From Eucommia ulmoides (lineage: Eukaryota; Streptophyta; Magnoliopsida; Garryales; Eucommiaceae), in assembly GCA_016647705.1 (NCBI GenBank), contig CM028328.1:50081647-50145646 (forward strand): 64,000 bases of DNA, given 5' to 3'. The notes under the pieces were generated by a model that was given only the letters and a program-made list of their open reading frames with translations, was not told the origin of the DNA and did not search any database. The number at the start of each line of letters is the position of its first letter. Position 1 is the first letter of the stretch. The position numbers and the translations under genes were made by a program. This document shows, piece by piece, positions 6,145-62,018 of this stretch.

Positions 6145-7400
6145 TGGTGGCAGAATTTCACGTCGCCACTTTTACCGCAAGTGTATGGGTCAAGTTTTAG
6201 TACAGTGGGAAGAGTAAGGGTTATCGTTTCCACAAGGATTGTATTAGATCATCGATAAGTACCGCGATTGTCGTAACTGAATTTATCTAGGCGATTGAAT
6301 TCTGGGTTTTTGTTTTAAGAATATAAACTAGACTAATAATTAATTAAATTATAATACTAACGATAACGTTTAGGGGAATAAATTATATAGAGATTGACTT
6401 CGTTCACTTAAACATGTTCATTTTAGTCTAGTTTACATTAACGACATTCAAACTATCCGACAATCTAGGTATCGTAAACTTGCTCACTACCTCTCTCGAG
6501 TGTAAAGTGAGCGAATATGTGATTTCGCGTCAATGTCGAAGTCCACCTCAATGTATATACAACCCTTAGTTAGATGAGTCTTAACCCAACCTCACGGGTT
6601 GCATACTTTCTAACGCCCTCCCCGGTCGTTAGATCGTCATGATGTGTTTAACCTTACTCTGAATCTGGGATTACCTCTCCCGAGTGTCAAACCCTTTATT
6701 TTCAAAACCAACACTAATACCATAACAAGTATATCAAGATTGTAATAAAATGGTAAACACAATCAGATAAAGACGAACAACCGATAACAAAACACAGATT
6801 CAAACAAACAATATTTCCATTAACTAATCAAGCCCTAAATAACATATTTTTAGCTATACAAGATCGTTACCAAATATTCAAGATTTGAAGAGAAAAACAA
6901 CATTATACAACATGCAAAGTTAAGAACAAAGAAAAAAAATGAAGAAAAGAAAGAAAATCTTAAGAGTGGGGTGTTCCACTTCTGTCGAAACCACTCCGAT
7001 CTTGTTTCTACTTCATCAAAATGTGTTCTCCTCTTTCGTCTTTGATCAAGAAGCTCCAAAATGTTCAAAATTATTTCCCAAAATGTTCTTGGGTCTTTGG
7101 AAGAATATGAGATGATATAGGGACAACAAATATCACAAAATATCCCAAAATATCAATTATGTCAGTTGTTGGACCACCGTGGCGGTGGAAATGCAGAGAG
7201 TTTAGCAACTGTCTGCTGTTTGACCGCTACGGTGGTGACACCCTTTGATATTTTGGCTGTAACTTTCACGTCCAAACTCCGATTAGGTGATACAAAAACT
7301 TACAGAAATATAACAAAACAATATACAACTTATATGTTTTGAGTTTTCCGAAAATCGAATGGAATCATGTTCAAAATTGGCCTTATAGAAATATAAGAAA
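6145..7400 (-). mobile_element. Partial Athila-like LTR (copy 1)
   Basis: On the plus strand the sequence starts TGGTGGCAG and runs through the blocks shared by all gypsy LTRs here. These are the GTATGGGTCAAGTTTTAG segment, two CTCTCNCGAGTGT motifs about 185 bp apart (near 6490 and 6674), and a GC-rich palindrome at 7174-7188. It also carries the AACTCCGATTAGG segment found in the solo LTR at 17.4-19.1 kb. The TGATAGG end is missing, so the copy is truncated near 7400. It is either a solo LTR or one LTR of an element inserted beside the gag fragment K. Confidence 0.75.
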
Positions 7401-7543: not shown

Positions 7544-8745
7544 AATTACACTAATACTAAGTTAATTAATCTAATATACTAATATAGTGTTATGACGTTT
7601 ATGGGAAATTATTGCCTAGGGATTAACTTCATTCACTTAAACCTGTTCATTTCAATCTAGTTTACATTAACGGCGTTCATCCTATCGGATAATCTCGGTA
7701 TCAAAATCTCATTCACTACCTCTCCTGAGTGTCAAGTGAATGAATATGTGACTTCGCGTTAACACCAAAGTCCCTCTCGAGCATCTATACGATACTTGGT
7801 CACATGAGTCTCGCCCCAACCTCACGGATTGCACACTTTCTAACTCCTTCCCAAGTTACTAGATCGTTGTGTTTTATTTAAATCCTAGTCCAAATCCGGG
7901 GTTACCTTTCCCGAGTGTCAAACTATTCTCAATATATCTAAATAAGCATATAAACGTGGAATAATGGAAAACACAATCGGATAAATATGAACAACCATTA
8001 ATGAAATATTGATTTTATATAAATAACGTTTTCGTGAATTACATCAAGCCCTAAACAATATATGTCTAGCTACACATGGCCGTAGCCCTAATACTACTAA
8101 ATACAATCTAAACATATACAAACATTCAACCAATCTAAGATCAAAAGAGAGAAACCATGAGACTAGCCGTTATCTGAAGATCTAACACTAAAATTGGTCC
8201 GAGAACACTTCCTCCTTCTTCACGTTGTGATCTTTTATTGGTCGAATGGCCTTGGAGCTCTCAAGACTTCCGAAAACGTCTACTTTTTGTTTGGGGAGAA
8301 GAGGGACGATATTTATAGGATTCAAAATATCTCAAAATATCCTAAAAAATCTAGTGCTTGCCGCTGCAGCGGTTAATAGGTCGGTAAGATTTTGGCGGGT
8401 GACCGCTGCAGCGATGGAGCTCTCTGTATTTTCACTGCTGCAGTGGTGGCCTAACCCCTGCAGTGGTGGAGCTTCAACAAATTCTCTGTATTTTTACCGT
8501 TGTAGTGGTGGTTTCACCGCTGTAGCGGTGGATGCAGGCTCTGAATATGACATTTTTGCCCTTTTTTCTCCACCATTCTTCTACCACTTTGATTGTTTAT
8601 AGACCGTTTTAGTCCTTTTTCACCCCCCAAATACCTAATTTAAGACAAAAAAATAAAAACGTATTAAAACATAATAAAATGCTATAAAAATACTCGAAAA
8701 CTACCAAAACCGGCTTGAGAATAAATAGATAAATTACACCTATCA
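7433..8745 (-). repeat. Element A 3' LTR (truncated)
   Basis: The LTR runs in sense from TGATAGGTGTAA (ending at plus 8745) to the ATCCACAGGGATTGG block at about 7433. The final ~95 bp present in other copies is missing. It contains a 28-base T run (about 7511-7538), two CGAGTGTCAA motifs, a TATA-like box near 8309-8318, and five GC-rich palindromes between 8361 and 8531. Confidence 0.85.
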
Positions 8746-8760
8746 AATACCCCCAAACTT
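8746..8760 (-). other. Polypurine tract of element A
   Basis: The minus strand reads AAGTTTGGGGGTATT directly before the LTR start TGATAGG. The same tract stands at the same place in element C (14622-14636). It is the expected primer for plus-strand DNA synthesis. Confidence 0.85.
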
Positions 8761-11491: not shown

Positions 11492-12759
11492 TGGTAGCGC
11501 GTGAAAACGTCGCTACTTTCACCGCAAGTGTACAGGTCAATTTTTAGTAGAGTGGGAAGAGTAAGGGTTGTCGTATCCATAATAGTCATAACCTAACTTT
11601 ATTTAGGCGATAAAAATATAGTTTTTTTTATAATAATTATACTAATACTAAGTTAATTAATCTAATATACTAATATAGTGGAATGACATTTATGGGAAAT
11701 TATTACTTAGGGATTAACTTCGTTTACTTAAATGTGTTCATTTCAATCTAGTTTACATTAATGGCATTCATCCTATCCGACAATCTCAGTATCGAAATCT
11801 CATTCATTACCTCTCCTGAGTGTAAAGTGAATGAATATGTGACTTCGCGTCAACGCTGATGTGCCCCTCAAGCTTCTGTACGACACTTGGTCGCATGAGT
11901 CTCACCCCAACATCATAGATTGCACACTTTCTAACTCTCTCCTAGGTTATTAGATCGTCGCATTGTGTTTAAACCCTAGTCCGAATCTGGGGTTATCTCT
12001 CCCGAGTGTCAAACCCCATACTCTCAGTATATTATAACAAGCATATAAACGTGGAATAATGTCAAACACAATCAGATTAATATGAACAACTATTAACGAA
12101 ATATAGATTTTATATAAGCAACGTTTTCGCGAAGTACATCAAGCCCTAGACAATATATGTTTAGCTACACATGGCCGAAGCCCTAAATACTACTAAATAC
12201 AAATTAAACATATACAAAGATTCAACTAATCTAAGAGATAAAGAGAGAAACGAGGACACTAGCCATTATCCGAAGATCCGACGCTAAAACCGCTCCGAAA
12301 ACGCTTTCTCCTTCTTCGCATTGTGATCTTCTATTGGTCGAATGGCCTTGGAGCTCTCAAGACTCCCAAAAACATCTACTTTTTGTTTGGGGAGAAGAGT
12401 GACGATATTTATAGGATTCAAAATATCTCAAAACATTCCAAAATATACTAAAAAATCTGGCGTTGACCGCTGTATCGGTGGAGCTTCAGTAAACTTTTTG
12501 TATTTTCACCACTATAGCGGTGGTTTTACTACTGCAGCGGTGGATACAGGCTCTAAATATGACCTTCTTGCCCTTTTTTTTTTCCACTGTTCTTCCACCG
12601 CTATGATTGTTTATGGATCATTTTAGTCCATTTTCACCCCCAAATACCTAGTTTAAGACAAAATAAATAAAAATATATTAAAACATAATAAAACGATATA
12701 AACATACTCAAAAACTACCAAAAGTGACTTGGGAATAAATAGATAAATTACACCTATCA
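11492..12759 (-). repeat. Element A 5' LTR
   Basis: This is a complete LTR of 1268 bp, TGATAGG...CTACCA in sense. Reading in sense, the palindrome cluster (plus 12465-12543) lies about 55-140 bp before the TATA-like box. After that comes the CTCTTCTCCCC transcript start region, then the two CGAGTGT motifs, then the end next to the primer site. Confidence 0.9.
12405..12414 (-). promoter_or_regulatory. TATA-like box in element A 5' LTR
   Basis: The minus strand reads CTATAAATAT within an otherwise conserved LTR segment. The same box is present in the 3' LTR (8309-8318). Position and composition fit the LTR core promoter. The GC palindromes lie immediately upstream. Confidence 0.6.
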
Positions 12760-13263: not shown

Positions 13264-14621
13264 TGGTACGACGAGGATTTAATGGCTCGCGTATTGACTA
13301 CTTCCAAGTGCATGAGGTCTAGTTTTAATATAGTGGATCATTTAAGACCGGATATCATTCCCCCAAGGATGGGTTGAATAAGTTGAATACCACAATTGGC
13401 ATAGTCTCCTATTATCCAGACAGTTAAAGAAATGATTTAAAATTAAACTAATTAAAACTAAGATAAACTACAATTAGTGGGTTAATTCTAACTAAGTTGA
13501 TTAACTAGGAATTGATTTCATTCACTTAATACATGTTTGATTTCGTTTAGTTAACAATAACGGAGTTTAGGTATCTGACAATCTCGGTTCGTACACTCCT
13601 CTGCCACCTCTTCCGAGTGTAAGACGGGGGAATACGCAGCTTCATGTCAACGCCAAAGTCCCCCTCAATGTCTTAATGACCCTAGGCCGCGTGAGTCTTT
13701 CCCCAACGTCATCGATTGCACACTTACGAACGCCCTCCCGGGTCATTAGATCGTAACGATGTGTTTATCCTAGTCCGAATCCAAGGTTACCTCTTCCGAG
13801 CGTCAAACCCTAGATTCTCAAATCGAACCCTAATACCTTAAAAAGCATATTGAAGTTGTCATAAAATGATAAACACAATCAGATTTAAAAGAAAACAACC
13901 GTTAAAGAAACATATATTAAACCAAACGAGTATTTACACAACTACATCGATCCCTAGCTAATATTTATCTAATCTAACATGATCTTGGCCATTAGAACTA
14001 CAAACCAAGAGGTATTAATCATCATTTACAATAAAACATAAAATTACAAAGAGAGAAACAAAGCAAGAAAGATCAAATCTTAAAGTGGAGTGATCCACTG
14101 TCTCCAAAAACCGATCCGCCTATGTTTCTTCTTCTCTGGATAATGAATATCTTCTTCAAGAATGGGAAATGATCAATCTCCTAGGGTTAGGGACGTTCCA
14201 TGCTCCAAGCCATGTTAAGGGAAGTGGGAGAATAGGTATTAATAGGCACAAGGTTTCAAAATATCTAAAAAAATATCTATTTGGTGTGCAAAGGTCATGG
14301 CCGCAACGCTGGGATCACGGCCGTGGCAGTGGGGGTAAGTCTATTAGTTTCCAGATATTTTACCACCACGGTGGTGGACTCTCTGAACTTTCACTACCGC
14401 GGTAGTGGCTTCCTCGCTGCGGCGGTGACTCTTGTGATCTTAAAACTTTGTTTTGTCATTATTTCTTCACCATTTTCCTACCATTTTTTCTCTTTTATCG
14501 CTTGTTTCCGTCCCTACACCTGAATTACATAAAAACTAACAAAAACACAATTAAATATAACTAATTCACTCAAAAACTATCAAATCCGGTTTAGAAGTAG
14601 ATAGGCATTTTACACCTATCA
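13264..14621 (-). repeat. Element C 3' LTR
   Basis: The LTR spans 1358 bp, starting TGGTACGACG on the plus strand and ending CCTATCA. It carries three near-perfect palindromes at 14316-14325 (CACGGCCGTG), 14363-14377 and 14392-14407 (CACTACCGCGGTAGTG, perfect 16 bp). The two CCGAG-GT motifs lie near 13607 and 13792. Confidence 0.9.
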
Positions 14622-16351: not shown

Positions 16352-19181
16352 TCCTACTGTTCACCTGGGGAAGGATCATCACCACCATTTTCACATCAGA
16401 AAGAAAATTGTGGCAGTTGCAAAAGGTGCGGCGGCACTGGCGGCATAGCCGAAAAAGAATGCATATCGATGCCGAAGCGCTCGTACATAAGCCGGTTGAC
16501 TTGATCTTGATGGTGTCCATATTGGTCTTGGTAAATCCATAGGTCGTATTGCCCATGTCAAAGATCTCGAAGTTCTTGGTGAACTTGCTCCTCGTCGAAT
16601 CTGGCCCGTCCGGGTGCCTCGAGAGTTGGGGCCCCAGAAGGCCCTGCCTTGTCTCTTGATTGCTCTTCATCCTCTTCCGCTCCTCCCGAAGTCTAGCCTT
16701 GAGCGCTCCCCTTTGACATCCTTACAATTATGGCTGCATTGAGGGCATTGATTGGAAAAAATGGGTTATCCCCATGGATCACCACCCCGGCTCGCCGACA
16801 CAACTCCGTGATTAAGTTTGGAAATGGTAGGCCTCATTTGGTTATCCCCACGGTATGTAGAATCGAACAATATATATGAGATCCAACGTTGAGCTGTTTT
16901 CCCCGCTTTATGGAATGTAACACAATAGCCCGCTCCTTTGGCACGTCCGAAAAGTGAGGTTGGGATCAGGCTGCCACATATAAATTGGTGCCATATTTTC
17001 AGCACCGGCTTCAGGAATCTGGCGGAGAAATTTGCTTAATCTGGCCCTTTGATGGTCCATTGGACATTGCCCATTGTCAAGTCCCTGATCATGTCTTCCA
17101 TACTTGGTCGGAACCCAGAATATGGTTCTTTAAAAGGTGGAAACAGTCCCAATCCCAATACCTCATTCAATTTTTTAGGACTGAAGAAGAAAATCTTGCC
17201 TCGGACCTTTGTCCAGTTCTCTTGAGCTTTAGTGGCATTTGCGTAGAGCTCCCGGACTATAGATACTTTACCGAGGGGAGGCGATTTGCAAAAATACTCC
17301 CAACCTCGGCTTTGAATAACGCTTTAAAATTCTACCGAGAGATCTTCTAGGGGCCCGAATCCTCGCTGCTTTATGCACGACCTAATGAACTTGATAGGTG
17401 TAAATTACCTACGTATTTTCAATCTAAATTTGTTAGTTTTCGAGTACGTTTATAGTTATTTTTATATGTTTTAATATGTTTTTATACTTTTTGTATAAAT
17501 CAGGTGTATGGAGCAAAAAGATAGAAAATTGGAGCGAAAACGATAAGATCGAACTGAAGGCGAGTCGAAGTTACGGTGGATAAACAAGCAAGGAGGCAAA
17601 AATATGAAGGAAGTCCACCACCTAGGCGTCCAGACCTTCGCCTAGGCAGTGAAAATGCTGAGAATGACAAAAGGCTACTGACAGCCCACCGCCTAGGCAG
17701 GAAATTCCTCTGCCTAGGTGGAAACCTTAGTAGAAACATTTCCAAATCCACCGCCTACTTCTTCGCCCAGGCGGTCACCAAACCTGCAAAGCCGGTATAG
17801 GTGCTGTAACGTCAAGGCTATTTTGGACTATAATTCAATAAGATTTTGGAAATACTCAAAACATGGAAGTTGTATATATTTGTCTTAGATTTCCATAGGT
17901 TTTTGAATCATCTCAATCGGAGTTCGGATGAAGAAGTTACAGATAAAATAAAATTGCAAACCTGCAGTAACTTCGCTTAGGCGAAATTATGGCAAAAAGT
18001 TAACCGACTTAACTTCGCCTAGGCAAAATTCCTGTAGCACAACCTTGATATTTATGAGATATTTTGAGATCTTTTGGCCTATTTTTTTAATCCCTTCTTT
18101 CCTCTTCTCTTCTCTCTCTTCAACCCTTAAGGCCTTAGGCCATATTTTATGAGTAGGATTAGGGATTTTTGAGGGAGAGCTCTCAACCCGAGGTGGAGGA
18201 TCAACGAGAAAGCGATCGATCGACGTTTCTAGCGGCAAATCTTCGGATATCGGCTAAGTCGCTTGTTTTCTCTCTTTGTTTTCTTAATTTTGGTAGTTGT
18301 TGAGCATGTTTAGCTCATTTTACATTGTATAAACGGTTAGGGCCATGAGTTAAACATGGATTTTAATAGGGATTAACGTATTATTTATGAAAATGTAGTT
18401 TTGGTTGAATTTGTGTTTCGCTTATGGTTGGTCCTTATAATTCCAATTGTGTTGCCGTGTTTTCTTTGATTATATGCTAGTTTAGATATATTCTGAATAT
18501 AGGGTTTGACACTTGGGAGAGGTAACCCTGGATTCGGACTAGGGTTAACACAACACGACAATCTAACGACCCAGGAGGGCGTTAGAAAGTGTGCAATCAA
18601 TGATGTTGGGGCAAGACTCACATGACCTAGAGTCATTAAGACGTTGAGGGGGACTTCGGCGTTGACACGAAGTCACGTATTCCCCAGTCTTACACTTGGA
18701 AGAGGTGGCGGGAAAATTTACGAACCGAGATTGTCGGATATGCTGAACGCCGTTAATGTTAACTAAAATGAAATCAAACGCATTTAAGTAAATAAAGTTA
18801 ATCCCTAGGCAATATACTCCCTTAAACAATCTCAAATTAATATTTATAGTATAGTTAACTTAATTAGTATTTTAGTTTAGTATTAGTATTAAATGAAATT
18901 CTATTTTTGTCGCCTAGATAAAGTCAGGTTACGACAATTGCGATACTCGATAGTAACAACACCAATCCCTGTGGATACGATACCCGATCGAAAGGTCCAT
19001 TATACTAAAACTTGATCTGTATGCTTGCGGTGAAAGTGGCAGCGCTTATTTAGCGGCCACCAGAACTCTTGCTTAATGAAATGCTCATCGGCTTTCTTTA
19101 AAACGTATCGAGTGGAATCGAAGTCAGGAGCCAACCCCAATCCTTTACCCTTGCACTCTTAGAAACAACTCTTTTAGGCAT
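16352..19181 (-). pseudogene. Athila-type 'putative plant transposon protein' ORF, split by a solo LTR
   Basis: The reading frame starts at an ATG (complement of 19179-19181) with MPKRVVSKSARVK and reads, with frame changes, through DSTRYVLKKADEHFIKQEF. It is then cut by the solo LTR and resumes with KQRGFGPLEDL, RGWEYFCKSPP, VRELYANATKAQENWTKVRG, FSPKKLNEVLGL and VLKIWHQFICGSLIPT. This order matches a domain that is common in Athila-like plant elements and is often annotated as a putative plant transposon protein. Its biochemical role is not established. Stops and frame shifts are frequent. The C-terminal part (about 16700-16352) is proline- and glutamine-rich in one frame (PPVPPHLLQLPQF). 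It is the only coding unit of element C. Confidence 0.7.
17392..19062 (+). mobile_element. Solo Athila-like LTR nested in element C
   Basis: The sequence is a complete LTR of 1671 bp, TGATAGGTGT...GGCCACCA. It is flanked by the five-base duplication GAACT (17387-17391 and 19063-19067), with no internal region. Such solo LTRs arise by recombination between the two LTRs of one element. Its palindromes have CCTAGG cores, unlike those of A, B and C (17615-17631, 17637-17649, 17685-17701, 17710-17721, and further copies near 17970 and 18015). The long spacer with CTCAATCGGAGTTCGG is shared with copy 1. Confidence 0.95.
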
Positions 19182-20565
19182 GGTTCCTAGAAATCACATT
19201 CACAAACAAGACAAACCCAATCACATACGCACAATGAAAAATAGTCTCTATATCAACACTATCAGGAATAAGGCTTTATCTCAATACACATTCACCATTT
19301 ACTATGATTTCAACAAAAAAACTAACAATGTAGCATGTATTTTTGTTTCACACAATTAAACAATCCATTTAAACATGTTTATCACCAAGAATCCAACCAA
19401 AATCCCAAAGAAATTTGAAATTGCGAAAATAGGGTTTAAGGGGTTTAGGGCAAAACTTTAAAATCAAATGATTTTAACATAATCATGCAAACCAACCAAT
19501 AATTTCAAAAACTAGAGAAAATGTAAGGTAAAAGAAACTTACTTGTTGAGAAATTACGGTCAAATCGAAGAGAAATGAAGAAATTTCACCGTTCATGCAA
19601 AAACCCTAAAATCTCGGAAATGGGGGTGGAAATCTGATTCTTGGAGGGTGATTTGTGGTGGATTTCAAATTTTTTGTAACTAGAAGGATGATTTTGATGG
19701 GTTGGAAATGGTTTGGAGGGTTGGGATTAGAGGGATTTGCGTTTTAGAGAGAAGGGAGAGAGTTTTGTTTGAAAGAGGCGCTGCTGTTTTAATTTGAACA
19801 GATGCGTCACCACCGCGGTGCTGACAGGGCCTTTTCTTAGATGAGCTACTGATGTTCCATTGCTGTGACGGTAGTAGTGATTTTTCTAAACTTAAGCTAC
19901 TGACGTTCCATTGCTGCGGCGATGGATTTATTACCACGGCGGTGCAGCGTTTTGCTGGAAAAGAGATACATCCTGAAGTTTCACCACCGCGGTGGTGGGC
20001 TTCATTGATTTTTCTTCATTTTCCTCTACAAAACTCCTCACCACTTGTTTCCATTCCCCTAGTTCAATGATTTTAAGTACAAAACACAACCCTAACTATC
20101 CAAACTCCTGGATTTACCTCCAAACTCGTTTCAAGACCATTCCGGCCTCTAAAAATAATTAAATAAATAGAAAAAATTGGGCGGAATCATGCCCTCATTT
20201 TCATATAAAAAATAATGCATTTCACATCATAAAAATATGAGCTTGATTTACCGTCCCTAGCTGAACTTTCGTGTTGCTAAACATTTTTCACCAAAATTCC
20301 CCATAGACAAAGAATTTGGGCTCAAATGCTCAGTCAGATCAAGATCATGAATTTAAGTCAGCTTCTCCTCTCTATCCTTATCATTTTCAATATAAGCTCG
20401 ATCTTGGGATTGAGAATTAAGAATTCCAAACCTCTTCATCGTTTCTCGCACGGCTTGATCGCACTAACGCAATAAACAAAAATAAAAATTTAAAAATAAA
20501 ACAAAATAAATGTCAGGATTAATATTCGTCCACTTAGTCGCAATATCAACTTAAAATTCACACAA
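19182..20565 (-). other. Leader (5' noncoding region) of element C, with GC palindromes
   Basis: The region lies between the primer site and the ATG of the ORF. It carries its own palindromes at 19811-19820 (CACCGCGGTG) and 19982-19997 (CACCACCGCGGTGGTG, perfect 16 bp), plus weaker copies near 19861 and 19925. An 85-codon open frame at 19937-19680 looks incidental. Confidence 0.6.
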
Positions 20566-20583
20566 TCCCCGTCAACGGTGCCA
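20566..20583 (-). other. Primer binding site, tRNA-Asp type (element C)
   Basis: The 18 bases match the complement of plant tRNA-Asp 3' end with two differences. The site lies six bases inside the 5' LTR. Confidence 0.9.
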
Positions 20584-20589
20584 AAAACT

Positions 20590-21996
20590 TGGTACGACGA
20601 GGATTTAATCACTCGTGTATTGACTACTCGCAAGTGGATGGGGTCTAGTTCTAATATAGTGGATCGTTTAAGATCGTATATTATTCCAACAGGGACGGGT
20701 TGAATAAGTTGAATACCGCAATTGGCATAGTCTCCAATTATCCAGACGGTTAAAGAAATGATTTAAAATTAAACTAATTAAAACTAAGCTAAACAAAAAT
20801 TAGTGGGTTAATCCTATCTAAGTTGATTAACTAGGGATAGATTTTGTTCACTTAATACATGTTTGATTTCATTTAGTTAACAATAATGGAGTTTAGGTAT
20901 CTGATAATCTCGGTTCGTAAACTTCTCCGCCACCTTTTCCGATTGTACGACAGGGGAATACGCGACTTTGTATCAACGCCAAAGTCCCCCTCAACGTCTT
21001 AACGACCCTAGGCCACGTGAGTCTTGCCCCAACGTCATCGATTGCATACTACCTAACGCCCTCCTGGGTCATTAGATCGTAACGATGTGTTTATCCTAGT
21101 CTGAATCCAAGGTTACCTCTTCCGAGTGTCAAACCCTAAATTCTCAAATCCAACCCTAATACCTTAAAAAGCATATTGAAGTTGTCATAAAATGATAAAG
21201 ACAATCAGATTTAAAAGCAAACAACTATTAAAGAAACATATATTAAACCACACGAGTACTTATACAATTACATCGATCCCCAACTAATATTTATCTAATC
21301 TAACATGATCTTGGCCATTAGAACTACAAACCAAGAGGTTTTCATCATCATTTACAATAACACATGAAATTACAAAGAGAGAAACAAAGAAAAAAAGATC
21401 TAATCTTAAAGTGGAGTGATCCACTATCGCCAAAGACCGATCCGCCTATGTTTTCTCTTCTCCGGATGATGAATATCTTCTTCAAGAATGGCCAAGGATC
21501 AATATCCTAGGGTTAGGGACGTTCCATGCTCCAAGCTGTCTTAAGAGAAGTGAGAGAATAGGTATTAATAGGCACAAGGTTTCAAAATATCTAAAAAATA
21601 TTTATTTGTTGTGCAGGGGTCATGGCCGCGACTCTGGGATCACGGCCAAGGCGGTGGGGGTAAGTCAGTTAGTTTCCAGATATTTTATCGCCACGGCGGT
21701 GGACTCTCTGAACTTTCATTGCTGCAGTGGTGGGCCTTCATGCATTTTAGGCCTTCTCTGCAATCTCACTGCCGTGGCGGTGGCTTCCTAGCCGCGGTGG
21801 TGGCTCTTGTGATCTTGAAACTTTGTTTCTTCATCATTTCTTTTCCATTTTTTCACTGTTTTCTCTCTTTTATTGCTTGTTTGCATCTCTATACCTGAAT
21901 TACATAAAAACTAACAAAAACACAATTAAATATAACTAATTCAATCGAAAACTATCAAATACGGTTTAGAAGTAGATAGGTATTTTACACCTATCA
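20590..21996 (-). repeat. Element C 5' LTR
   Basis: The LTR is 1407 bp. It matches the 3' LTR along its length with substitutions and a segment of about 50 bp near 21730-21780 not seen in the other copy. Palindromes lie at 21689-21702, 21767-21782 and 21791-21801. A CACGTG core (GCCACGTGAGTC) occurs near 21013. Confidence 0.9.
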
Positions 21997-22001
21997 AAAA
22001 C

Positions 22002-23392
22002 TACAAACAAAAATTAAAAATAAAATGAATGCCTAAAGTAAAATCAAGTTGTTTACTCACAATATCAACAACAATCTAAAAATCAATCCCCGTTGCTACT
22101 TTGATAGCAAGTGTTCGGGTCAAGTTTTAGTAGAGTGGGGAAGAGTAAGGGTTGTCATATCCACAAGGATTGGTGTCGATTATCATTGAGAACCGTAATT
22201 GTCATAACCTAACTTTATTTAGGTGATAGCAAATGTAGTTTTTATAATAAATATACTAAAATAAGTTATCTAATTAAACTAATTAATCTAATATACTAAT
22301 ATAATGGTGTGACATTTATTGGAAATTATTACCTAGGGATTAACTTCGTTCACTTAAACGTGTTCATTTCAATCTAGTCTACATTAACGATGTTCATTTT
22401 ATCCGACAATCTCAGTATCGAAATCTCATTTACTACATCTCCCGAGTGTAAAGTGAATGAATATGTGACTTTGCGTCAATTCCGAAGTCCCCCTCAAGCG
22501 TCTATACAACACTTAGTCGCATGAGTCTCTCCCCAACCTCACGGATTGCACACTTTCTAACCCTCTCTTGGGTTATTAGATCATCGCGTTGTGTTTAAAC
22601 CCTAGTTCGAATCCTGGGTTACCTCTCCCAAGTGTCAAACTTTGTGATTTCAATATATCTAAACAAGAATATAAATGTTGAATAATGGTAAAGACTATTG
22701 GATAAACACAAACAACCATTAATGAAACATAGATTTTATATAAACGACGTTTTCGTGAATTACATCAAGCCCTGGACAATATATGTTTAGCTACACATGG
22801 ACGTATCCCTAAATAAACTTAAATACAAGCTAAAAAAATACAAACATTCAACCAAATCTAAGAGAAAAAGAGAGAAACGAGGAGACTAGCCGTTATCTGA
22901 AGATCCATCGCTAAAACCGCTCCGAGAACGCTTATTCTTTCTTTGTGTTGTGATCTTCTATTGGTTGAATGGCCTTGGAGCTCTCAAGATTCACAAAAGC
23001 ATCCACCACTTTGTTTGGGGGATAGGGAAAAATATTTATAGGATTCAAAATATCCTAAAAAATCTGGCGCTGACCGCTGCAGCGGTGAATAGGTCGTAAG
23101 GATTCTGGCGGGTGACTGCTATAGCGGTGGAGCTCTCTGTATTTTGACCACTACAGCGGTGGAGCTTTAGCAAACTCTATGTATTGGCTTTGAATATGAC
23201 ATTTTTGCCTCTTCTCTCCACCATTCTTCCACCGCTTTGATTATTTATGGACCGTTTTAGTTCATTTTCACCCTAAATACCTAATTTAAGACAAAATAAA
23301 TAAAAATGTATTAAAACATAATAAAATGTTATAAAAATACACAAAAACTAAAAAAATCAGCTTGTGAATAAATAGATAAACTACACTTATCA
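22002..23392 (-). mobile_element. Element B leader and 5' LTR
   Basis: After the AAAAC duplication the leader of element B continues (22002-22090), matching the leader of element A. The expected primer site and LTR end are shortened: CCCCG is joined directly to TTGCTACTTTG, a loss of roughly 40-45 bp. The LTR then runs from about 22093 to 23392 and starts in sense with TGATAAGTG. Palindromes at 23072-23088, 23114-23130 and 23147-23162 use CTGCAG, CTATAG and CTACAG cores. Confidence 0.8.
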
Positions 23393-30131: not shown

Positions 30132-31330
30132 GTTAGTATAAATATAAATACTAAACTAAAATACTAATTAATATAATTACACTATTTATACTATATTGAG
30201 ACGTTTAGGAGAATGAATTATCTAGGGATTAACTTCATTTACTTAAACATGTTTGGTTTCGGTTAGTTAACAATAACGGTATTCGATCTATTCGACAATC
30301 TCAGTATCATGAACTCATTCACTCCCTCTCCCGAGTGTCAAGTGAATGAATTTGTGACTTCGCGTTAACGTCGAAGTCCCCCTCTAGAGTTTTGTAGAAC
30401 ATATAGTCACATGAGTCTTATCCCAACGTCATGGATTGCACACTTTTTAATACCCTCTTGGGTCTTTAGATCGTCGCGTTGTGTTTAAACCCCAGTCCGA
30501 ATCCGAGGTTACCTCTCCCGAGTGTCCAACCCTAATTTCTCAACATATCTAAACAAGCATATTATGGAAATATAAGAACGGTAAACACAATCGAATAGCG
30601 AAGAACAACCGTTAATGAAACAGAATTCAAACAAATGACATTTTCATAAACTATATTAATCCCATAGATAATCCATGTTTAGCCAATGGCCATAACTGTA
30701 TATACAATAACAAACGAGCTAAACATGCTCAAACAAACTATCCAAGTTAAGAAATAAAGAAAGAAACGAAGGAACTTAGTCGTTATCTGAAGATCCAACG
30801 GTAAAACCACTCCGAGAACGTTCCTCCTTCTTCAATTTATGATCTACTTCTTTGGGTTTGAATAAGCTCCCCAAAAACTCTAAAACATATCCTATACTAA
30901 TCTCTAATAAGGTCTAATGGCCGAAAAATTGAGAGGAGGATAAGATATAGGAACAAAAAATATCTCAAAATATCACCGCTGCAACGGTGGCATCATCACT
31001 GCAGCGGTGGTTCGTCAGTGGGCACTCTGTTGTTTCACCGTTGTAGTGGTGGAAAGATAGAGGAAATGTGAGCTATTTTTTGTTTTACTGCTACAGCGGT
31101 GGACAACTTGGCTTTTTCATAATTTTTCCACCATTCTTCCACCGTCGTTTCACTGATTAGCTCAATTTTCAACCGTTTTAGCTTCTTTTTGTTTCAAACA
31201 CCTGATTTATACAAAAATAAATAAAATATAATTAAAACAAATTAAAACACGATAAAAATACTCAAAAACTACCAAATTCGATTTGAAAATAAATGGATAA
31301 ATTACCCCTATCACGTATTAAACATAGTAA

Positions 31331-39696: not shown

Positions 39697-41297
39697 TGTT
39701 GGCCGCAATTCATACGCTACCACTTTCATCGCAAGCGTACGGATCAAGTTTTAGAATAATGGATCTTTCGGTCTGGTATCGTATCCACATGGATTGGTGT
39801 TGTTACTATCGAGTACTATGATTATCATAACCTGATTTTATCTAGGCGACCAACAATGTAATTTAATTAACTAATACTAATACTAATATAGCTTAATTTA
39901 ATCTATACTAACACTAATATTAATATGAGATAGTTTTGAGAGAATAGGTTGTCTAGGGATTAGTTTCGTTTACGAATATGTGTTAAGTCTCGTTTTAGTT
40001 TATTTTAACGGTGTTCGACTTATCCGACGATCTCGGTATCTAAAACTCCTCCGCCACCTCTCCCAAATGTAAGACGGGGGATATAACACAACTTCGTGTC
40101 AACGAAAAAGTCCCCCTCAATGTCTTAAAGACCCTAGGTTGCGTGAGTCTTGCTCCAACCTCATTGATTGCACACAAAATCTCAGTTCGTAAACTCTTTC
40201 GCCACCTCTCCTGAGTGTGAGACGAGGGATATGATGTGACTTCGAATCAACGAAAAAGTCTCCCTCAGCGTCTTAACGACTCTAGGTCACGTGAGTCTCT
40301 CCCCAACGTCATCGATTGTCCACAATCCAAACCCTGACTGGGTTATAGGATTGTGGCGTTTGTTTATTCTAGTCCGAATTTGGGATTTGTCAAACCCCGT
40401 ATTCTTGATATGTAAATCTAAGCAATATAAACAAATAATACTGCATACACAATCAACATAATGAAGAACAATCGCAAACAAAACACAAACTCAACTAAAC
40501 AACGTTTTCATAAATTATATTAATAATCCCTATACAACCTATATTTAGCCAATGGCCATAACCACGTATACAATGTAAAATGGCATAAACATACTCAACA
40601 ACTACTAAAATGAAGAAAATAAAGAGAAAAAACGAGCGACTTAACCAATATCCGAAGAATAGTTGTTAGAACCATTGAACGATAGCTTTCCTCTTCATCC
40701 TCCACCTTGGGTTGAGAGCTCTCCCTCAAAAATCCCTAATCCTACTCCTAAAATATGGCCTAAGACCTTAGGGGCCGAAGAAGTCTGAAGAGATGAGAAA
40801 AGAAGGGTATTTATAAATAAAATATCTAAAATAAAATATCTAACACTGCGCAGAGGCCACCGTCACGGCGGTGGAGTATGTCAGTTAAGGTTCGCTGCAG
40901 CGGTAAAGAAGGCAGTGGTTGTGGAAAACTTTCTGCTGGATTTCTGCCTAGGCGGTAGAATTTCTGCCTAGACGGTGGGTGATTTCCGCCTAGGCCGAGG
41001 GCAGTCAACAGCAATTTGTTCTTCTCAGCATCTTCACCGCTGCGGCAGTGGTCTGGACGCCGCAGCAGTGAGCTTGTTTACAGAATCTTGCCGTCTTGCT
41101 CATTTTTCCATCGTTCTCCGACCGTTCTTGATATGATTTGATCGTTTATGCTCCGATTTCTTACATTTTCACCCCACGCACATGTTTTATTACAAAAGGA
41201 ATAAAAGAAATATAATAAAACATATAAAAATAACTATAAAATTACTCTAAAACTAACAAAATCAGTTTGGAAATATGTAGGTAGATCACACCTATCA
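39697..41297 (-). repeat. Element D 3' LTR
   Basis: The LTR is 1601 bp and starts TGTTGGCCGC on plus. The central ~145-bp module (CGCCACCTCTCC-GTGTAAGAC ... GTGAGTCT-GCCCCAAC) is present twice (about 40040-40170 and 40185-40310), against once in A and C. Palindromes include 40857-40874 and several CCTAGG-core copies at 40945-40995. Confidence 0.85.
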
Positions 41298-43057: not shown

Positions 43058-43075
43058 TCCGCAGCAACGGCGCCA
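43058..43075 (-). other. Primer binding site, tRNA-Asp type (element D)
   Basis: The 18 bases include an intact GCAACGGCGCCA and match the tRNA-Asp complement with two differences. The site lies six bases inside the 5' LTR. Confidence 0.9.
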
Positions 43076-43081
43076 AAAACT

Positions 43082-45769
43082 TGGTGGCCGCTAATTAAGC
43101 GCTGCCACTTTCACCGCAAGCCTACGGATCAAGTTTTAGTATAATGGATCTTCCGGTCGGGTATCGTATCCACAGGGATTGGTGTTGCTACTATCGAGTA
43201 CCACAATTTTCAAAACCTGACTTTATCTAGGCAACCAAAAATATAATTTAATTAACTAATACTAATACTAATATAACTTAATTTAATATATACTAATATT
43301 AATATTAATATGAGATAGTTTTGAGAAAATAGGTTGTCTAGGGATTAGTTTTGTTTACGAATACGTGTTTAGTCTCGTTTTAGTTTATGTTAACGACGTT
43401 CGACTTATCCGACGATCTCGGTATCCAAAACTCCTTCGCCACCTCTCCCAAGTGTAGGACGGGGGATATAACGCAACTTCATGTCAACGAAGAAGTCCCC
43501 CTCAATGTTTTAATGACCATAGGTTGCATGAGTCTTGCCCCAACCTCATTGATTACACACAAAATCTCAGTTCGTAAACTCCCTCGCCACCTCTCTCCAA
43601 GTGTAAGACGAGGGATATGATGTGACTTCGAATCAACAAAGAAGTCTTCCTCAACATCTTAATGACTCTAAGTCACGTGAGTCTCACCCCAACGTCATCG
43701 ATTATCCACAATCCAAACCCCGACCGGGTTATAGGATTGTGTCGTTTGTTTATTCTAGTTCGAATCCGGGATTTATCAAACCCCATATTCTCGATATGTA
43801 AATCTAAGCAATATAAACAAACAATACGGCATACATAATCAACATAATGAAGAACAATCGCAAACAAAACACAAACTCAACTAAATAACGTTTTCATAAA
43901 TTATATTAATAATCCCCATACAACCTATGTTTAGCTAATGGCCATAACCACGTATACAATATAAAATGGTATAAACATGCTCAAAAACTACCAAACTGAA
44001 GAAAACAAGGAGAGAAAATGAGTGACTTAGCCAATATCCGAAGAATAGCCGCTAGAACCGTCGAAAAGCCTAAAATATGGCCTAAGGCCTTAGGGGCCGA
44101 AGAAGTCTGAAGAGAGGAGGTGAGAAGGGTATTTATAGACAAAATATCTAAAAAAAAAAATATCTAACATTACGCAGAGGCCACCGCCGCGGCGATGGGA
44201 TTCACCGCTGTGGTGGTAGAATATGTCAGTTAAGGTTTGCTGCAGCGGTGGAGAAGGTGGTGGCTGTGGAAAACTTTCTGCTGGATTTCCGCCTAGGCGG
44301 TGGGTGATTTTCGCCTAGGCCGGGGAAAATCAGCAACAATTTGTTCTTCTCAGAAGGGGCATGTAACACAACTTCGTGTCAACGAAAAAGTCCCCCTCAA
44401 CGTCTTAACGACCCTAGGTTCCGTGAGTCTTGCCCCAACCTCATTGATTGCACACAAAACCTTAGTTCGTAAACTCTTTCGCCACCTCTCCCAAGTGTAA
44501 GACAAGGGATATAATGTGACTTTGAATCCATGAAGAAGTCCCCCTCAACGTCTTAACGACTCTAAGTCACGTGAGTCTCGCCCCAATGTTATTGATTTCA
44601 TGTGTTGTGTTTACCCTATCGACAATCTCAGTTCTAAAACTCCTTCGCCCCCTCTCTCGAGTGTAAGACGAGGGAATACGTGACTTCAAATCAATGAAGA
44701 AGTCCCCCTCAATGTTTTAACGACCCTAGGTCACGTGAGTCTTGCCCCAACGTCATAGATTGTCCACAATCCTAACCCCAATTGGGTTATGGAATCGTGG
44801 CATTTGTTTATTCTAATCTGAATCAGGGATTTGTTAAACCCCATATTCTCGATATATAAATCTAACCACAATAAACAAACAATATGATAAACACACTCAA
44901 AACAGCGAAGAACAATCATCAAGAAACATAACTTCAACCAAAACTACGTTTTTATAAATAATATTCATCTCATACATAATCCACGTTTAACCTATGGCCA
45001 TAGCCATTTATACAATTAAAATTATGCTAAACATGCTCAAACGTACATAGAAGATAAGAAATGAAAGGAAAAATAGATGAACTTAGCCGATATCCGAAGA
45101 TTAGCCGCTAAAACCGTCCACTGAATGATTTTCCTTCTCTGCGTGTTGATCTTCTCCTTCCGATATGTTTGAGCACTCCTCATACTCTCTCTATACTATA
45201 ATCTAAGCCCTAAGGGCTGTAATGGCCAGCGGGGTGAAGGAGGCAGGAGGAAGGAGGAAAGAGGTATTTATAAGTAAAATATCTAAATAAATATCTAACA
45301 CTGCGCAGAGACTACCGCCACGGTGGTGGAGTATGTCGGTTAAGGTTCGCCTAGGCGGTGGATTGGGAAAACTTTCTGCTGGTTCACCGTCGCGGCGATT
45401 GATTTTATCGTTGTGGCGCTGGGTAGTCAGTAGCCTATTTTTGTTCTCTACTTCTTCACCGCTGAGATGATGGTCCGTCAGTGGACTTTGGTCTTTCTTA
45501 GCATCTTCACCGCCGTGACGGTGGTCTGGACGCTGCGGCAGTAGGCTTGTTTGCAGAATCTTGTCGTCTTGCTCATTTTTCCACCGTTCTCTGACCGTTC
45601 TCGATATGATTTGATCATTTATGCTCTGATTTCATACCTTTTCACCCTACGCACCTGTTTTAATACAAAAAGAATAAAAAAACATATTAAAACATATAAA
45701 AATAAGTATAAAATTACTCTAAAACTAACAAAATCGGTTTAGAAATATATAGGTAAATCACACCTATCA
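43082..45769 (-). repeat. Element D 5' LTR with large internal duplication
   Basis: The LTR is 2688 bp against 1601 bp for its partner. From 43082 to about 44353 it follows the normal LTR through the palindromes to TTTGTTCTTCTCAG. It then re-enters the LTR at the module region (ACACAACTTCGTGTCAACG at about 44367) and runs again through modules, palindromes and the CCTATCA end. It is therefore a chimera of two overlapping partial LTRs. A perfect 12-bp palindrome CCGCCTAGGCGG lies at 44289-44300. Confidence 0.85.
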
Positions 45770-45774
45770 ATCAT

Positions 45775-46790
45775 CCTTCTTGACTTGTCCGTATCTTCTT
45801 AGCCTTTTATTTTTGCTATTTGATTCACTGATACATCCATTTGCTCATGTCACTTGTGGCTTCCTAATGATATCCTATCTTGGATTTGACAATCCTTTTC
45901 TGATTACACGTTTCGGTTGTGGCTTCATTGTAATCTCACATTCTATCTTTGGTGCATATTTTCGCTTTGCACACATCGCTTGTGGATATTTGGTGACTTC
46001 CTGTTTTAGCTTTGACATAACTTCTTTGTTTTCTCCTTCAAGTCCACTTCGGATATTATGTAATTCTGCACAAGACATTTCAATAGTTCTTTTCAGTATC
46101 CATTTCATTTTGAATCCATCCTTATTAGACATAAACTTAGGGTTATGAAACGGACATGATACTTTAAAATGCCCAACTCTATTGCAATAATAACATCTCA
46201 AATTTGATTGATCATAGAAAGCAGGAGATGTAAAGGAAGAATCATTTCAACAATAGCCACATAATTATCACTGGCTTGTGATGAAGGATAAGATGGTGAA
46301 GTATATCCACTTTGCCTAGAAAAATCATTCTTAAAATCTATTGAAAAAGTCTTAAGGTCGGATTTTGATTTTTCAAAATTTTTCTTAAGTAAATCAATTT
46401 TAGAAACAAGATCTAACTTTTGCCTGAAAATCATATCAAAATTATTTTTAAAACTTTGTTTTCATTTTCAAGAGAATGCACTTTAGAGAGTAAATTGTTA
46501 ATTTCAAAAACAACATCAAAATATTCTTTTGTACTACAATAATAATCCAAATGCACTTTAGATTTTTAGACACTTTTTCCACCATTTTCAAAAGAATTAA
46601 ATTTTCTTTTTAAATTCAAGCTCTCTTTAGCAAAACGTAGTGTAAAAGAAAATAATTTTTCCATAACAAAAGGGACATTTTCATTATCATCATCTCCATC
46701 ACTACCACAAGAATTACAAGAATCATAAACCATATTTTCATATACGAATTTATCATTATCAAAATAGGATACACAAAACACATAATTCAT
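45775..46790 (-). pseudogene. Element E gag with intact zinc knuckle
   Basis: Three consecutive pieces (46790-46566, 46434-46198, 46201-45875) give MNYVFCVSYFDNDKF, an acidic SDGDDDNENV stretch and a lysine-rich coiled-coil-like region (IDLLKKNFEKSKSDLK). A CCHC zinc knuckle CYYCNRVGHFKVSC follows (C3, C6, H11, C16 of the third piece). The zinc knuckle binds the element RNA in copia gag. The usual N-terminal gag (UBN2-type) domain is missing: the frame begins about 55 bp after the primer site with this C-terminal half. The same arrangement is seen in element F. Confidence 0.8.
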
Positions 46791-46846: not shown

Positions 46847-46858
46847 GCTCTGATACCA
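46847..46858 (-). other. Primer binding site, initiator tRNA-Met (element E)
   Basis: The minus strand reads TGGTATCAGAGC two bases inside the LTR. This is the standard plant copia primer site. Confidence 0.9.
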
Positions 46859-54783: not shown

Positions 54784-56892
54784 TATTGATCCTAAGATTT
54801 TGATGGACAATTAAAAGTTGAATTTTTTGGGGGAACTAACAGTTTGATTAAGTGTTTCAGTTTATTAGTTCCAAATAATGAAGATATGATGAAAAAGATG
54901 ATAAATGATTAAGAGGTTGAAGAATTTCAAGAACCTAGGAAAAACAACTCAGGTTAAATTTTAACTCTTAATATCCCAATTAGGATCACAAACGGCACAA
55001 AAAGATTTTTAAATGATTTTTATAAATATTTATTTTTAATAGGATCCTAATTAACTAAATTATTTTCTCCTATGTGTAATTGAAAAATAAATATTAATAA
55101 TTGATTAAAATTGAATTTAAGTATTTAGTGGAGCTAACCGAGAGAAGAAATTGGTTAAAGGAGTGAAAATATCAATAAAATGGATTAAAAATGAATTGAG
55201 ATAAGTGTTCCAGCATTGGTAAGTCGATAGGTAAGTCAACCGGAGTATAGAAGGAAAAGTTTTTGTATCTCTCAGTCGACAGATAGGTCGGCCTGTGCTT
55301 AAATATAAACTCTCTGTATCTATAAGTCGAAAGAGCGGTTAACTTGTGATAAGAAATAGAACTCTCTGAATCTCTAAGTCGACAGATAGGTCGACTGATA
55401 GGCACAGAATTTTTGTCTTGGCTAGATCCTGAATCGATCGGTCGATATGTGATTTTGGTCAGTCGACTTATGGGACTGTTTCAGGATATTATAGAATTCT
55501 GGATTTTATTCTAAAAGTAGTTATTACTAGCCATTTTATAGTTAAGATTCATCAGAGATTTTAGGGATTTAATGTTATTTGAGATATGCAACACATATTA
55601 TGATATTCTTGTAGATATGGTTCATTAAGTTTGAATATTTTTCAATTTGGTACATGTAATACTTTATATCCTATTTAATTGTGATTGAAAAATATTTGGC
55701 GGACTTAATTAAGAAGATTGAAATTTATAATTAAGTGATTTGAATCAAGATGAAGTCGTAATGATATAAGGGGTCTATAAGAGCAATTAAGTATCATAAC
55801 AAGTGGGAACTAGGCGTTAGAGAGCTTATTTTATTCCCATAGACCTACGTTTTATATATTAGAGAGAGAGAGATCAAGACTATTATACTGAGATTTTCTA
55901 AGAGAAATCATATTGAGAATTCTTGTGAATTATTTGTTGTGAATCATTGTTGCTACCAAATCTAAAGTGACATTGTTATAATTATTCTTTCGGTAGATTT
56001 CGAGTGAGATCTTTCCAAATTACTTTCTATTTAGTATTGCTTGATTATATTTGAAATTTGATCTTTAGAAATTGTTTTCTAATTTTTTATTGAAAAATAT
56101 TTTTGAAACAATTTGTTGAATCAATCTGATTACGTGCTCAATTACGTTCTACCCATTTTTGTTTAAAATTAGATTTTGAGTATCTTACTTTTCTATCACT
56201 AGTTTTGAGATATCAATTAAGTATCTGTGGTGGTAGAAGCTCTGAGTAAGAAAAATCACTTGTCAAATTTTAAATTGGTAAGTTGAGTGATGGATTGAAT
56301 ATTGTTGTGAGTATTTAATCTAAGGTTAGCTGGTTTCAGTCCTTCCTGTAAAGAGATTGAGGTAGTAATTATTCCTGAATTGAATTTTCTTGTGACCAAT
56401 TTTGTTACAATTCAATCCTTACCAGGTAAAAAGATATTTAGAGTGTTTGTGAGGTTTTAATTCTTTAGCCTTAATTTAAAAAAGAATTAGGTTATTCTTG
56501 AGCTTGTAAAAAATAGAGCTTATTCCTAAGTCTTTGAAAAGGAATTTATAAAGGTTGATTATGAGTATGTAAAAGAATCTTTGTGAGGGTTTGGTTCCTA
56601 ACTTTAAAGAAATCTTGAGTTTAGTAGGTACGATTCTCCGTAGAGCTCGGAGGACTGAATTAGCTAAGAGTAACTTGGTAAACCAGTATAAATTTCTGGT
56701 GTACTATTATTTTTCATTATTTATTTGTGTTGTTTGGTGTGCACCTAGGTGATATCATATTTCCACTGTTATACAAAGATAATAATTAATTTAGAATTAA
56801 AATTAATTATTTGGATTATTGAAGTATTTTTTCTCTGATAGTTTTTTTATCTACCCAATTCACCCCCTCTTAGGTATCTCACTAGGCCAACA
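54784..56892 (+). repeat. Element F 5' LTR
   Basis: The LTR is 2109 bp. It has GTCGAC repeats in U3 (about 55215-55450), GATCAAG after a TATA box at 55851, and the end CACTAGGCCAACA. Differences from the 3' LTR are spread along the length. Confidence 0.9.
55851..55860 (+). promoter_or_regulatory. TATA box of element F 5' LTR
   Basis: TTTATATATT is followed by an AGAGAGAGAG transcript-start-like region. In the 3' LTR the same place reads TTTACATATT (about 60587), a weakened box. Confidence 0.6.
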
Positions 56893-56894
56893 AT

Positions 56895-56906
56895 TGGTAT
56901 CAGAGC
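56895..56906 (+). other. Primer binding site, initiator tRNA-Met (element F)
   Basis: TGGTATCAGAGC lies two bases after the LTR end. It matches the plant initiator tRNA complement exactly. Confidence 0.95.
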
Positions 56907-56960
56907 TAGTTTTAGCTCAATTAGGCTTAACATCAACTAAATTGGTCACGTGCACAGACC

Positions 56961-57930
56961 ATGGATGATGTGTTTTGTGTATCCTCTTTTGATAGTAGTA
57001 AATGCGTATGTGATAATGTGATCTATGAATCTTGTGATTCTTGTGGTAGTGATGGAGATGATGATAATGAAAATGTCCATATTGTTATGGAAAAATTACT
57101 TTCACTCACACTACTTTTTGCTAAAGAGAGCTTGAATTTAAAAAGAAAAATCACTTCTTTTGAAAATGGTAGAAAAATTGTTTAAAAATTTAAAATGTAT
57201 TTGGATGATTATTGTGGTACAAAAGAGTTTTCGGACGTTAGTTTTTAAATTAATAATTTTCTCTCTAAAATGGATTCTCTTGAAAATGAAAATAGAGTTT
57301 TAAAAAATAATCTTGACATGATTTCTAAGCAAATGTTAGATGTTAATTCAAAAATCGATTTACTTAAGAATTGTTTTGAAAAATCAAAATCTGACCTCAA
57401 GTCTATTTCAAGAGCTTCTGAAAATAATTTTTCTAGGCAAAGTGGATATGGTTCATCGTCTTATCCTTCATCACAAACCAGTGATAGTTATGCTTCTATT
57501 GTTAGAAACGATTTATGTTTTACATCTCGTGCTTTCTATGATAAATAAGATTTAGGATGTTATTATTGCAGTAGGGTTGGGTATTTTAAAGTATCATTTC
57601 TATTCAGGAACTGTAAGTTTATGTCTAACAATGACAGATCCAAAACGAAATGGATACCGAAAAGAACTGTTGGAATGTCTTGTGCAGAGTTACATATTGT
57701 CAGAAGTGGACCCAAAGGAATAAACAAACAAGTTATATCAAAGCCAAGTTAAGAAGTCAGCAAGAATTCACAAGCGATGCATACAAAGCAAAAAGATGCA
57801 TTAAAGACAAGAAGCGAAGCTACAAAGAAGCCACGAGAGACATGTGCAAAGAGAAAAGTTGTGCCAAATCTAAGATGGGATATCACCAGGAAGCTACAAG
57901 CGATACGTGCAAAAGGAATCATCAATAAAT
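56961..57930 (+). pseudogene. Element F shortened gag
   Basis: The first piece (56961-57185) starts MDDVFCVSSFDSSKCVC with an acidic SDGDDDNENV stretch. The second (57270-57548) has a heptad-like coiled-coil region (LENENRVLKNNLDMISKQ) and a serine-rich SGYGSSSYPSSQTSDSY segment. The zinc knuckle after 57558 reads CYYCSRVGYFKVSF, so its histidine and last cysteine are lost. A lysine/cysteine-rich tail follows with an imperfect repeat (EATRDMCKEKSC / EATSDTCKRN). As in element E, the N-terminal gag domain is absent. The match to E is collinear, so both descend from the same shortened form. Confidence 0.8.
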
Positions 57931-59513: not shown

Positions 59514-59527
59514 AAAAAAGGGGGAGA
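59514..59527 (+). other. Polypurine tract of element F
   Basis: AAAAAAGGGGGAGA stands one base before the 3' LTR start TGTTGATTC. It is the expected plus-strand primer. Confidence 0.9.
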
Positions 59528-59528
59528 T

Positions 59529-61658: not shown

Positions 61659-62018
61659 TTCTTAAATTCAATTTTAATTAATTATCAATATTTCATTTTC
61701 AATTACACATAGGAGTAAATAATTTAACTAATTAGGATCCTATAAAAAAAACACATATTTATAAAAATTATTTTTTGTCGTGTGTGATCCTAATTGAGAT
61801 ATTAATAGTTAAAATTTAACCTGAGTTGTTTTCCCTAAATTCTTCAATTTCTTCAAACTCTTAATCTTCCATCATATTTGTTATCATCTTTAGCATTGCC
61901 ACAATATCTTCACGATCATTTTCATCACTGGAACTAAGAAACTGAAACATTCAATAAAATCATTAGTTTCATAAAAAATATCAATCTTTAATTATCCATT
62001 AAAATCTTAGAATCAACA

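Follow-up and report, generated by a model that had tools for sequence, protein, structure and literature searches.

The palindrome cluster at 8360-8529 is real, and it is one instance of a long terminal repeat (LTR) promoter layout that recurs throughout the genome. We analysed a window of 64,000 nucleotides (G000:C4:50081647-50145646; the term denotes this whole stretch) from a plant genome of 946 Mb, which consists of nested LTR elements, the majority of them on the minus strand. What we observe directly is the layout, how often it occurs in the genome, the constant spacing inside its palindromic boxes, their helical phasing (weak in one LTR family, B) and the near-independence of the two box arms within families. 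As to function, we lean slightly towards the view that the cluster is an array of protein-binding sites on double-stranded DNA, set in helical phase and coupled to clock/cold MYB input, with box cores that would be drifting by methylcytosine decay.

The cluster lies in the U3 of a family A LTR that reads on the minus strand and starts with TGATAGGTG from 8745 downwards, preceded by the polypurine tract TTTGGGGG (8750-8757; start and tract together 8745-8757, by sequence reading). Six boxes of 14 bp each start at 8360, 8402, 8434, 8454, 8496 and 8516, with spacings of 42, 32, 20, 42 and 20 bp. Between the boxes and a TATA box (TATAAATA in LTR sense, 8310-8317, minus strand, by sequence reading) lies a match to the evening element (AGATATTTT in LTR sense, 8324-8332, minus strand). 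The initial annotation had described five inverted repeats just upstream of the LTR TATA box; the cluster and its position hold, and two of the sequences it gave are found at 8361-8372 (CCGCTGCAGCGG) and 8515-8531 (CACCGCTGTAGCGGTGG), but the count is six.

Nine further box LTRs occupy the window, on the minus strand unless stated. Family A LTRs carry three boxes at 12466-12541 (evening element at 12420) and three at 23073-23160 (without an exact evening element), and a family A-like LTR has four at 30975-31100 (evening element at 30957). Family B is represented by four boxes, mostly with CGCG-type cores, at 14317-14426 (evening elements at 14258 and 14270) and by five at 21642-21804 (evening element at 21584; the PBS-like GGCACCGTTG downstream at 20582); in each of these LTRs an extra evening element of opposite orientation sits inside the box array (14353 and 21678). 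Four boxes with CTAG-type cores at 17617-17775 on the plus strand (evening element at 18057) belong to a family C LTR that, by our reading of the coordinates, is nested within a family B element. The other family C LTRs have boxes at 40859-41049 with cores of CTAG, TGCA and CGCG type (evening elements at 40819 and 40833), four boxes at 44183-44301 (evening elements at 44141 and 44157; the PBS-like GGCGCCGTTG downstream at 43074) and four at 45314-45522 (evening element at 45276). A second minus-strand cluster at 19809-19999, without an exact adjoining evening element, is internal to the family B element by coordinate reading; lying downstream of the PBS-like sequence at 20582 and, on the same reading, outside its element's LTR, it recalls the extra Sirevirus boxes ahead of an internal open reading frame (ORF). 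Two more boxes at 7173-7236, with no exact evening element close by, are perhaps an old LTR fragment.

Counting as boxes those that match 7 or more of the 10 arm letters, all ten intervals named in the initial annotation exceed dinucleotide shuffles (0 of 300 shuffles in seven intervals, P = 0.003 to 0.02 in three), whereas under a stricter count, of 14-mers in which 6 or more of the 7 pairs are complementary, only four of the ten do so at P < 0.01. The interval 45313-45358 does hold boxes, but it is part of the four-box cluster reaching 45522. Other statements proved too strong. The arms were said all to share CACCGC and GCGGTG, yet exact ACCGC/GCGGT arms occur in only one of the six boxes at 8360-8529 and in 2 of the 42 window boxes with at least 8 of 10 arm letters; the stems were said to remain self-complementary, yet many boxes contain at least one mismatched pair. 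The boxes had also been placed at the same position in every gypsy LTR of the window; a Sirevirus-type LTR pair in the window (roughly 55100-61700) is free of them, so boxes are not a feature of every LTR.

Across the 946 Mb genome, 11,873 sites match the exact frame CACCGC-N4-GCGGTG, against 8 for a reversed control. Replacing N4 by N5-N12 yields only 138 sites for all of these spacings pooled (control, 646), which shows that the box geometry is fixed. The boxes are also concentrated locally: in 72 fetched LTR loci, the U3 windows (64.8 kb) contain 286 of them and the other 173 kb 38. A shorter geometry, ACCGC-N1-GCGGT, has 13 exact cases in the U3 windows. We further sampled the first 5.05 Mb of contig C1, where 50 listed exact-arm sites of the 11,873 fall into 44 stretches; this sample was chosen by position only, and one chromosome end may not represent the genome. 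At least two boxes are present in 42 of the 44 stretches, which together hold 201. Of the first 20 of the 44 stretches, compared by blastn, 19 match the fetched LTR loci or the window (L083 is the exception). The stretches show partial similarity across LTR families.

The second component of the layout is AAAATATCT, the evening element of clock-controlled plant gene promoters, of which AGATATTTT is the reverse complement. According to the accessible part of PMC8998424, clock-gene promoters carry this same 9-mer, often repeated, upstream of the gene; here, by contrast, it stands in LTRs at thousands of places, near the TATA box and beside palindromic boxes, in a stretch that its TATA box suggests is a promoter. 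AGATATTTT lies between the last box and the TATA box in 53 of 57 scorable LTRs, with 87 copies where first-order resampling predicts about 0.8. The C1 stretches contain the element anywhere in 38 cases (64 copies, none of the reversed motif) and lack it in 6 of 44, and the window has 18 copies against 3.5 in shuffles, 14 of them within box LTRs by coordinate reading. Genome-wide, GCGGT-N15..45-AGATATTTT gives 6,645 + 8,610 matches against 73 + 77 for the control, overlapping matches being included and GCGGT being half a box only; with the evening element flipped, the same search gives 359 + 353 against 121 + 161. At about 15,000 matches one way and about 700 the other, one orientation of the evening element prevails. 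Neighbouring evening elements are mostly 10-11 bp apart in family A and the C1 sample and 9-14 bp apart in families B and C. Around the element the sequence is AT-rich and repeats about every 10 bp; the element could instead be structural, as bent DNA. Among the genome-wide matches listed, several LTR types have a recurring linker (CACTCTGCACAG and similar) between the last box and the TATA box, where evening-element-like motifs also often form an inverted pair. We found no description of evening elements or helical phasing in such LTRs in the literature looked at, which, judged mostly by titles, is weak evidence of absence.

Boxes mostly stand whole helical turns apart, at multiples of about 10.5 bp, although this is weak in family B. 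The first 20 C1 stretches have 58 adjacent spacings, 47 of which measure 19-21, 32-34, 40-45, 49-53 or 62-65 bp. Across all 44 stretches (150 adjacent spacings), a scan of periods from 5 to 20 bp is highest at 10.5 bp (R = 0.65); merging homologous spacers into 53 clusters lowers R at that period to 0.47 and moves the peak to 10.25 bp. A null with ±5 bp jitter reached the observed value in 0 of 5,000 runs, a test that is optimistic in that spacer clusters may still share remote ancestry. By set, R is 0.84 in family A, 0.69 in family C and 0.60 in the window, and falls to 0.29 at 10.5 bp in family B, where the best period is 6.25 bp. The distance from the last box to the TATA box, scorable in 57 of the 72 loci, is similarly grouped: 55-58 bp in 8 and 66-67 bp in 19 family A LTRs (n = 28), 53-57 bp in all eight of family C, and, in family B (n = 21), 64-66 bp in 8 and 85-86 bp in 7, the other six being 45, 49, 74, 90, 91 and 112 bp.

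The initial annotation had taken changes on both arms, and cores that switch while staying symmetric, as a sign of selection for symmetry. We aligned 33 family A copies at four box slots (132 cells), using the 119 ungapped boxes and dropping 13 gapped ones; the commonest box at each of the four slots is ACCGCTGCAGCGGT. Of 234 changes, 195 are C>T (90) or G>A (105). When partners were shuffled within slots, five of the seven pairs showed Watson-Crick pairing no better than expected by chance (P = 0.07 to 0.88); the two pairs that stand out, A-T (P = 0.035) and T-A (P = 0.004), do so on one and two boxes of the 119, respectively, with P values uncorrected. Paired changes thus lend no support to selection for symmetry within families. 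The double core 'switches', likewise, are about as frequent as independent C>T decay predicts. Family A cores comprise 77 TGCA, 23 TACA, 15 TGTA and 4 TATA of 132, and, as independence predicts 4.5 TATA, CTGCAG, CTGTAG and CTATAG represent zero, one and two independent decays (transitions) at CAG sites. In family B, CGCG (44), CGTG (15), CACG (7) and CATG (2; 2.4 predicted) make up the core counts of 116, and the outer pair reads TGCG in 10, CGCA in 8 and TGCA in 5 (1.8 predicted). Fisher tests give P = 1 for both core pairs, 0.15 for the family B outer pair and 1 for the outer core pair of the C1 sample. Both the pair shuffles and these counts, close to the independent expectation, lead us to reject within-family selection for symmetry. 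The variety of cores looks mainly like ordinary cytosine decay, probably deamination at CG and CHG sites: the mutation pattern suggests that cytosines on both strands of the ancestral palindrome were methylated and would have turned to T independently on each arm, which would mimic symmetric switching because the ancestral palindrome was itself symmetric. In methylated repeats, an apparent symmetric 'switching' of motifs can arise from cytosine decay alone, and selection should be claimed only after an independence test.

These data also bear on the idea that the boxes fold into hairpins, whether in the transcript or as single-stranded DNA, that host small-RNA machinery recognises, as proposed for maize Sirevirus palindromes. 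Small RNAs do pile up on those palindromes, as described in the accessible parts of PMC5311732 and PMC10760457, and the same sources describe a palindrome-rich, rapidly varying cis region in maize Sirevirus LTRs, as here, although the elements differ. The 181-nt cluster folds better than shuffles (z = -4.3 as RNA, -5.3 as DNA), but strong folding is expected of any palindrome cluster. Compensation is missing at five of seven pairs, and changes that keep a wobble pair are not preferred, C>T (which leaves G-U) numbering 90 and G>A (which leaves A-C) 105 (P = 0.27). Hairpins would tolerate loops of 5-12 bases, yet such loops are rare between exact arms, and helical phasing would be left unexplained. 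We therefore rejected an RNA or DNA hairpin as the conserved feature, do not favour the promoter hairpin suggested in the initial annotation, and consider recognition of hairpins by small-RNA machinery unlikely. The fixed half-site spacing, the phasing with neighbours and TATA box and the scant compensation between arms fit proteins sitting on one face of double-stranded DNA better than hairpins.

Substitution rates are relevant both to constraint on the boxes and to plain descent, in which an ancestral LTR acquired the layout by chance and multiplied it by retrotransposition, with no current function. Transversions are depleted in boxes relative to the rest of the LTR, both at A/T positions (4/503 versus 340/11,179, P = 0.0016) and at CG/CHG positions (25/1,256 versus 93/2,712, P = 0.012), whereas CG/CHG transitions are only slightly rarer (208/1,256 versus 537/2,712, P = 0.016). 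The copies come from 40 scored of 6,581 candidates (30 fetched), so the sample leans towards the window copy. Descent would explain why box cytosines at CG and CHG sites are lost nearly as fast as those of the rest of the LTR, why stretches are partially similar across families and why window LTRs of families A, B and C have a common start, TGATAGGTG. It sits poorly with the depletion of transversions and with a single prevailing orientation of evening elements (about 15,000 versus about 700 matches), and although the number and positions of boxes vary with LTR type, their spacing mostly stays in phase; we judge descent without function quite unlikely.

The start TGATAGGTG is common to seven box-bearing window LTRs, with families A, B and C all represented. 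Two of the seven (8745 and 14621), which come after TTTGGGGGTATT, are preceded by TTTGGGGG, and that tract is near the LTR start in 21 of the 72 fetched loci (families A-C). Both PBS-like sequences within box elements, GGCGCCGTTG at 43074 and GGCACCGTTG at 20582, lie on the minus strand, and the pattern GGC[AG]CCGTTG occurs in 7 of the 72 loci. The Ty3/gypsy Tat-like (OTA) elements, for which the tRNA-Asp-like GGCGCCGTTG is a PBS type, are a candidate clade; judged from PBS and polypurine tract, the box-LTR lineage appears gypsy-like. The accessible part of PMC6317226 defines that clade by reverse transcriptase-RNase H-integrase (RT-RH-INT) phylogeny and an aRH domain. A Pfam scan of 10 of the 14 window ORFs of at least 120 amino acids detected no pol domain; two of the ten gave matches, a zinc knuckle at 45875-46246 and, on the minus strand at 2136-2498, a weak match to the MuDR transposase DNA-binding domain that is under the curated cut-off.

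Those ORFs matter for the proposal that an activator or anti-silencing protein encoded by the elements themselves binds the boxes, whose types would co-evolve with it. VANDAL transposons offer a parallel, their VANC proteins binding short family-specific repeats, and such a protein would suit both the concentration of boxes in one kind of LTR (286 in the 64.8 kb of U3, 38 in the other 173 kb) and the fact that families hold different core classes. Neither Pfam match among the ten scanned ORFs suggests a box-binding protein, however, and arms and spacing are alike across families, so that we find this proposal rather improbable.

Only the central dinucleotide truly switches between two classes: it is GC or TA, depending on family and slot. 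Among the 201 boxes of the C1 sample it is TA in 71, GC in 69 and TC/GA in 16. Both classes are found within one LTR, at different slots, in family C, and the B-type LTR L059 carries CTAG-type cores in its middle slots. The change from GC to TA takes two transversions, and asymmetric intermediates are present in numbers: a hand count of the first 50 sites in the class, which has 3,554, gives 9 with CGAG/CTCG. We tentatively read the class change as few events, not a repeated pattern: a few box types, with central GC or TA, would have been fixed in different LTR families and slots and then spread by duplication and retrotransposition. One LTR type in C1 (L073, L085 and L090) repeats a fixed asymmetric core, CCAA (CCGA in L073), showing that asymmetric cores can become fixed too; its asymmetric-core box stands 19 bp from a TTAG box. 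Self-copying palindromes without function, perfected by template switching in reverse transcription, could account for the two boxes altered on both sides of the T-A pair and for the two transversions between classes, but are very improbable, given that double changes on the whole do not exceed independence, that asymmetric cores persist (CTAA/TTAG in 35 of 201 C1 boxes) and that phasing and evening elements would go unexplained.

The closest described relatives of the boxes are the repeated motifs (RMs) of Sireviruses (Ty1/copia): palindromes that each LTR carries in numerous copies upstream of its TATA box, with a CGG/CCG signature in 12 of 13 and central bases that differ between elements (Bousios et al. 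2010, PMC2829016). The accessible part of that study also reports extra RM copies upstream of the ENV gene, describes the RMs as absent from the classic retrotransposons of its set, and gives OPIE-2 and PREM-2 boxes the same CACCG...CGGTG ends as those here. The present boxes are likewise repeated CGG/CCG palindromes clustered upstream of an LTR TATA box. The initial annotation, which knew of no described palindrome family with constant arms and switching cores, is thus answered in print as regards palindromes with varying central bases, although the box LTRs appear to be of a different lineage. Here, half-sites are 4 bp apart, and evening elements and helical phasing go unmentioned in the accessible text of PMC2829016. 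The Sirevirus PBS TATCAGAGC is found in 0 of the 72 family A-C loci (1.5 kb flanks, many of which may fall short of the PBS), and AGGGGGAGATTG, which combines the Sirevirus polypurine tract with the attachment ATTG, in 0 of 72, so the box LTRs do not look like Sireviruses. The layout would thus be a Sirevirus-RM-like arrangement in another lineage. For gypsy/Retand LTR palindromes we found no matching description in the literature looked at, including the accessible parts of PMC11963269 and of PMC6911290, the latter dealing with insertion sites; for six exact box strings, published titles pointed to no evidently related use.

The window itself contains a Sirevirus-type element at roughly 55100-61700, with an LTR pair whose 300-base pieces are 86% identical, TATCAGAGC at 56898 and polypurine tract copies AGGGGGAG at 59357, 59456 and 59519, the only occurrences of AGGGGGAG in the window. 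A second Sirevirus-type PBS lies at 46855 on the minus strand. TATCAGAGC occurs in the window at these two places only, and the adjoining LTR stretches that were examined have neither boxes nor evening elements.

On the favoured reading, the cluster would be the distal part of a compact LTR promoter, arranged from distal to proximal as usually three to six boxes, usually one to three evening elements 10-11 bp apart, and the TATA box. Each box, with its half-sites ACCGC and GCGGT held 4 bp apart, may be bound as double-stranded DNA by a symmetric, dimeric protein, and with most of the array at whole helical turns the bound proteins would face the same way. A dimeric binding site was among three ideas in the initial annotation and is the best of them, owing to the N4 spacing, the phasing and the rarity of transversions; the paired-change argument made for it finds no support within families. 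A dimer reading the two half-sites would be the simplest box factor, with proteins of LBD or AP2/ERF type as candidates. Evening elements are bound by CCA1/LHY/RVE proteins and confer evening-phased transcription; those in the LTR would take clock/cold MYB input of this type and, jointly with the boxes, set LTR transcription. For the boxes, LBD/LOB-domain factors, which bind palindromic DNA through 'molecular calipers' in the accessible part of PMC10118128, would as dimers read two GC-rich half-sites at a set distance and so explain constant arms with tolerant cores; the half-site there is GCGGCG and here GCGGTG, making them a candidate class only.

More tentatively, and with some doubt on our part, a non-Sirevirus plant LTR lineage would have converged on palindromic U3 boxes, joined in helical register to evening elements, and may in this way have spread enhanceosome-like promoters, responsive to clock or cold and read by a candidate dimeric factor, to thousands of sites in one genome. 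If so, palindromic boxes upstream of the LTR TATA box would have arisen in a second lineage besides the copia Sireviruses, and comparing the two could put host-factor models to the test. The LTR of a large retrotransposon lineage would then reveal its clock input, and thousands of dispersed copies could be evening-phased promoters or decoys for clock proteins.
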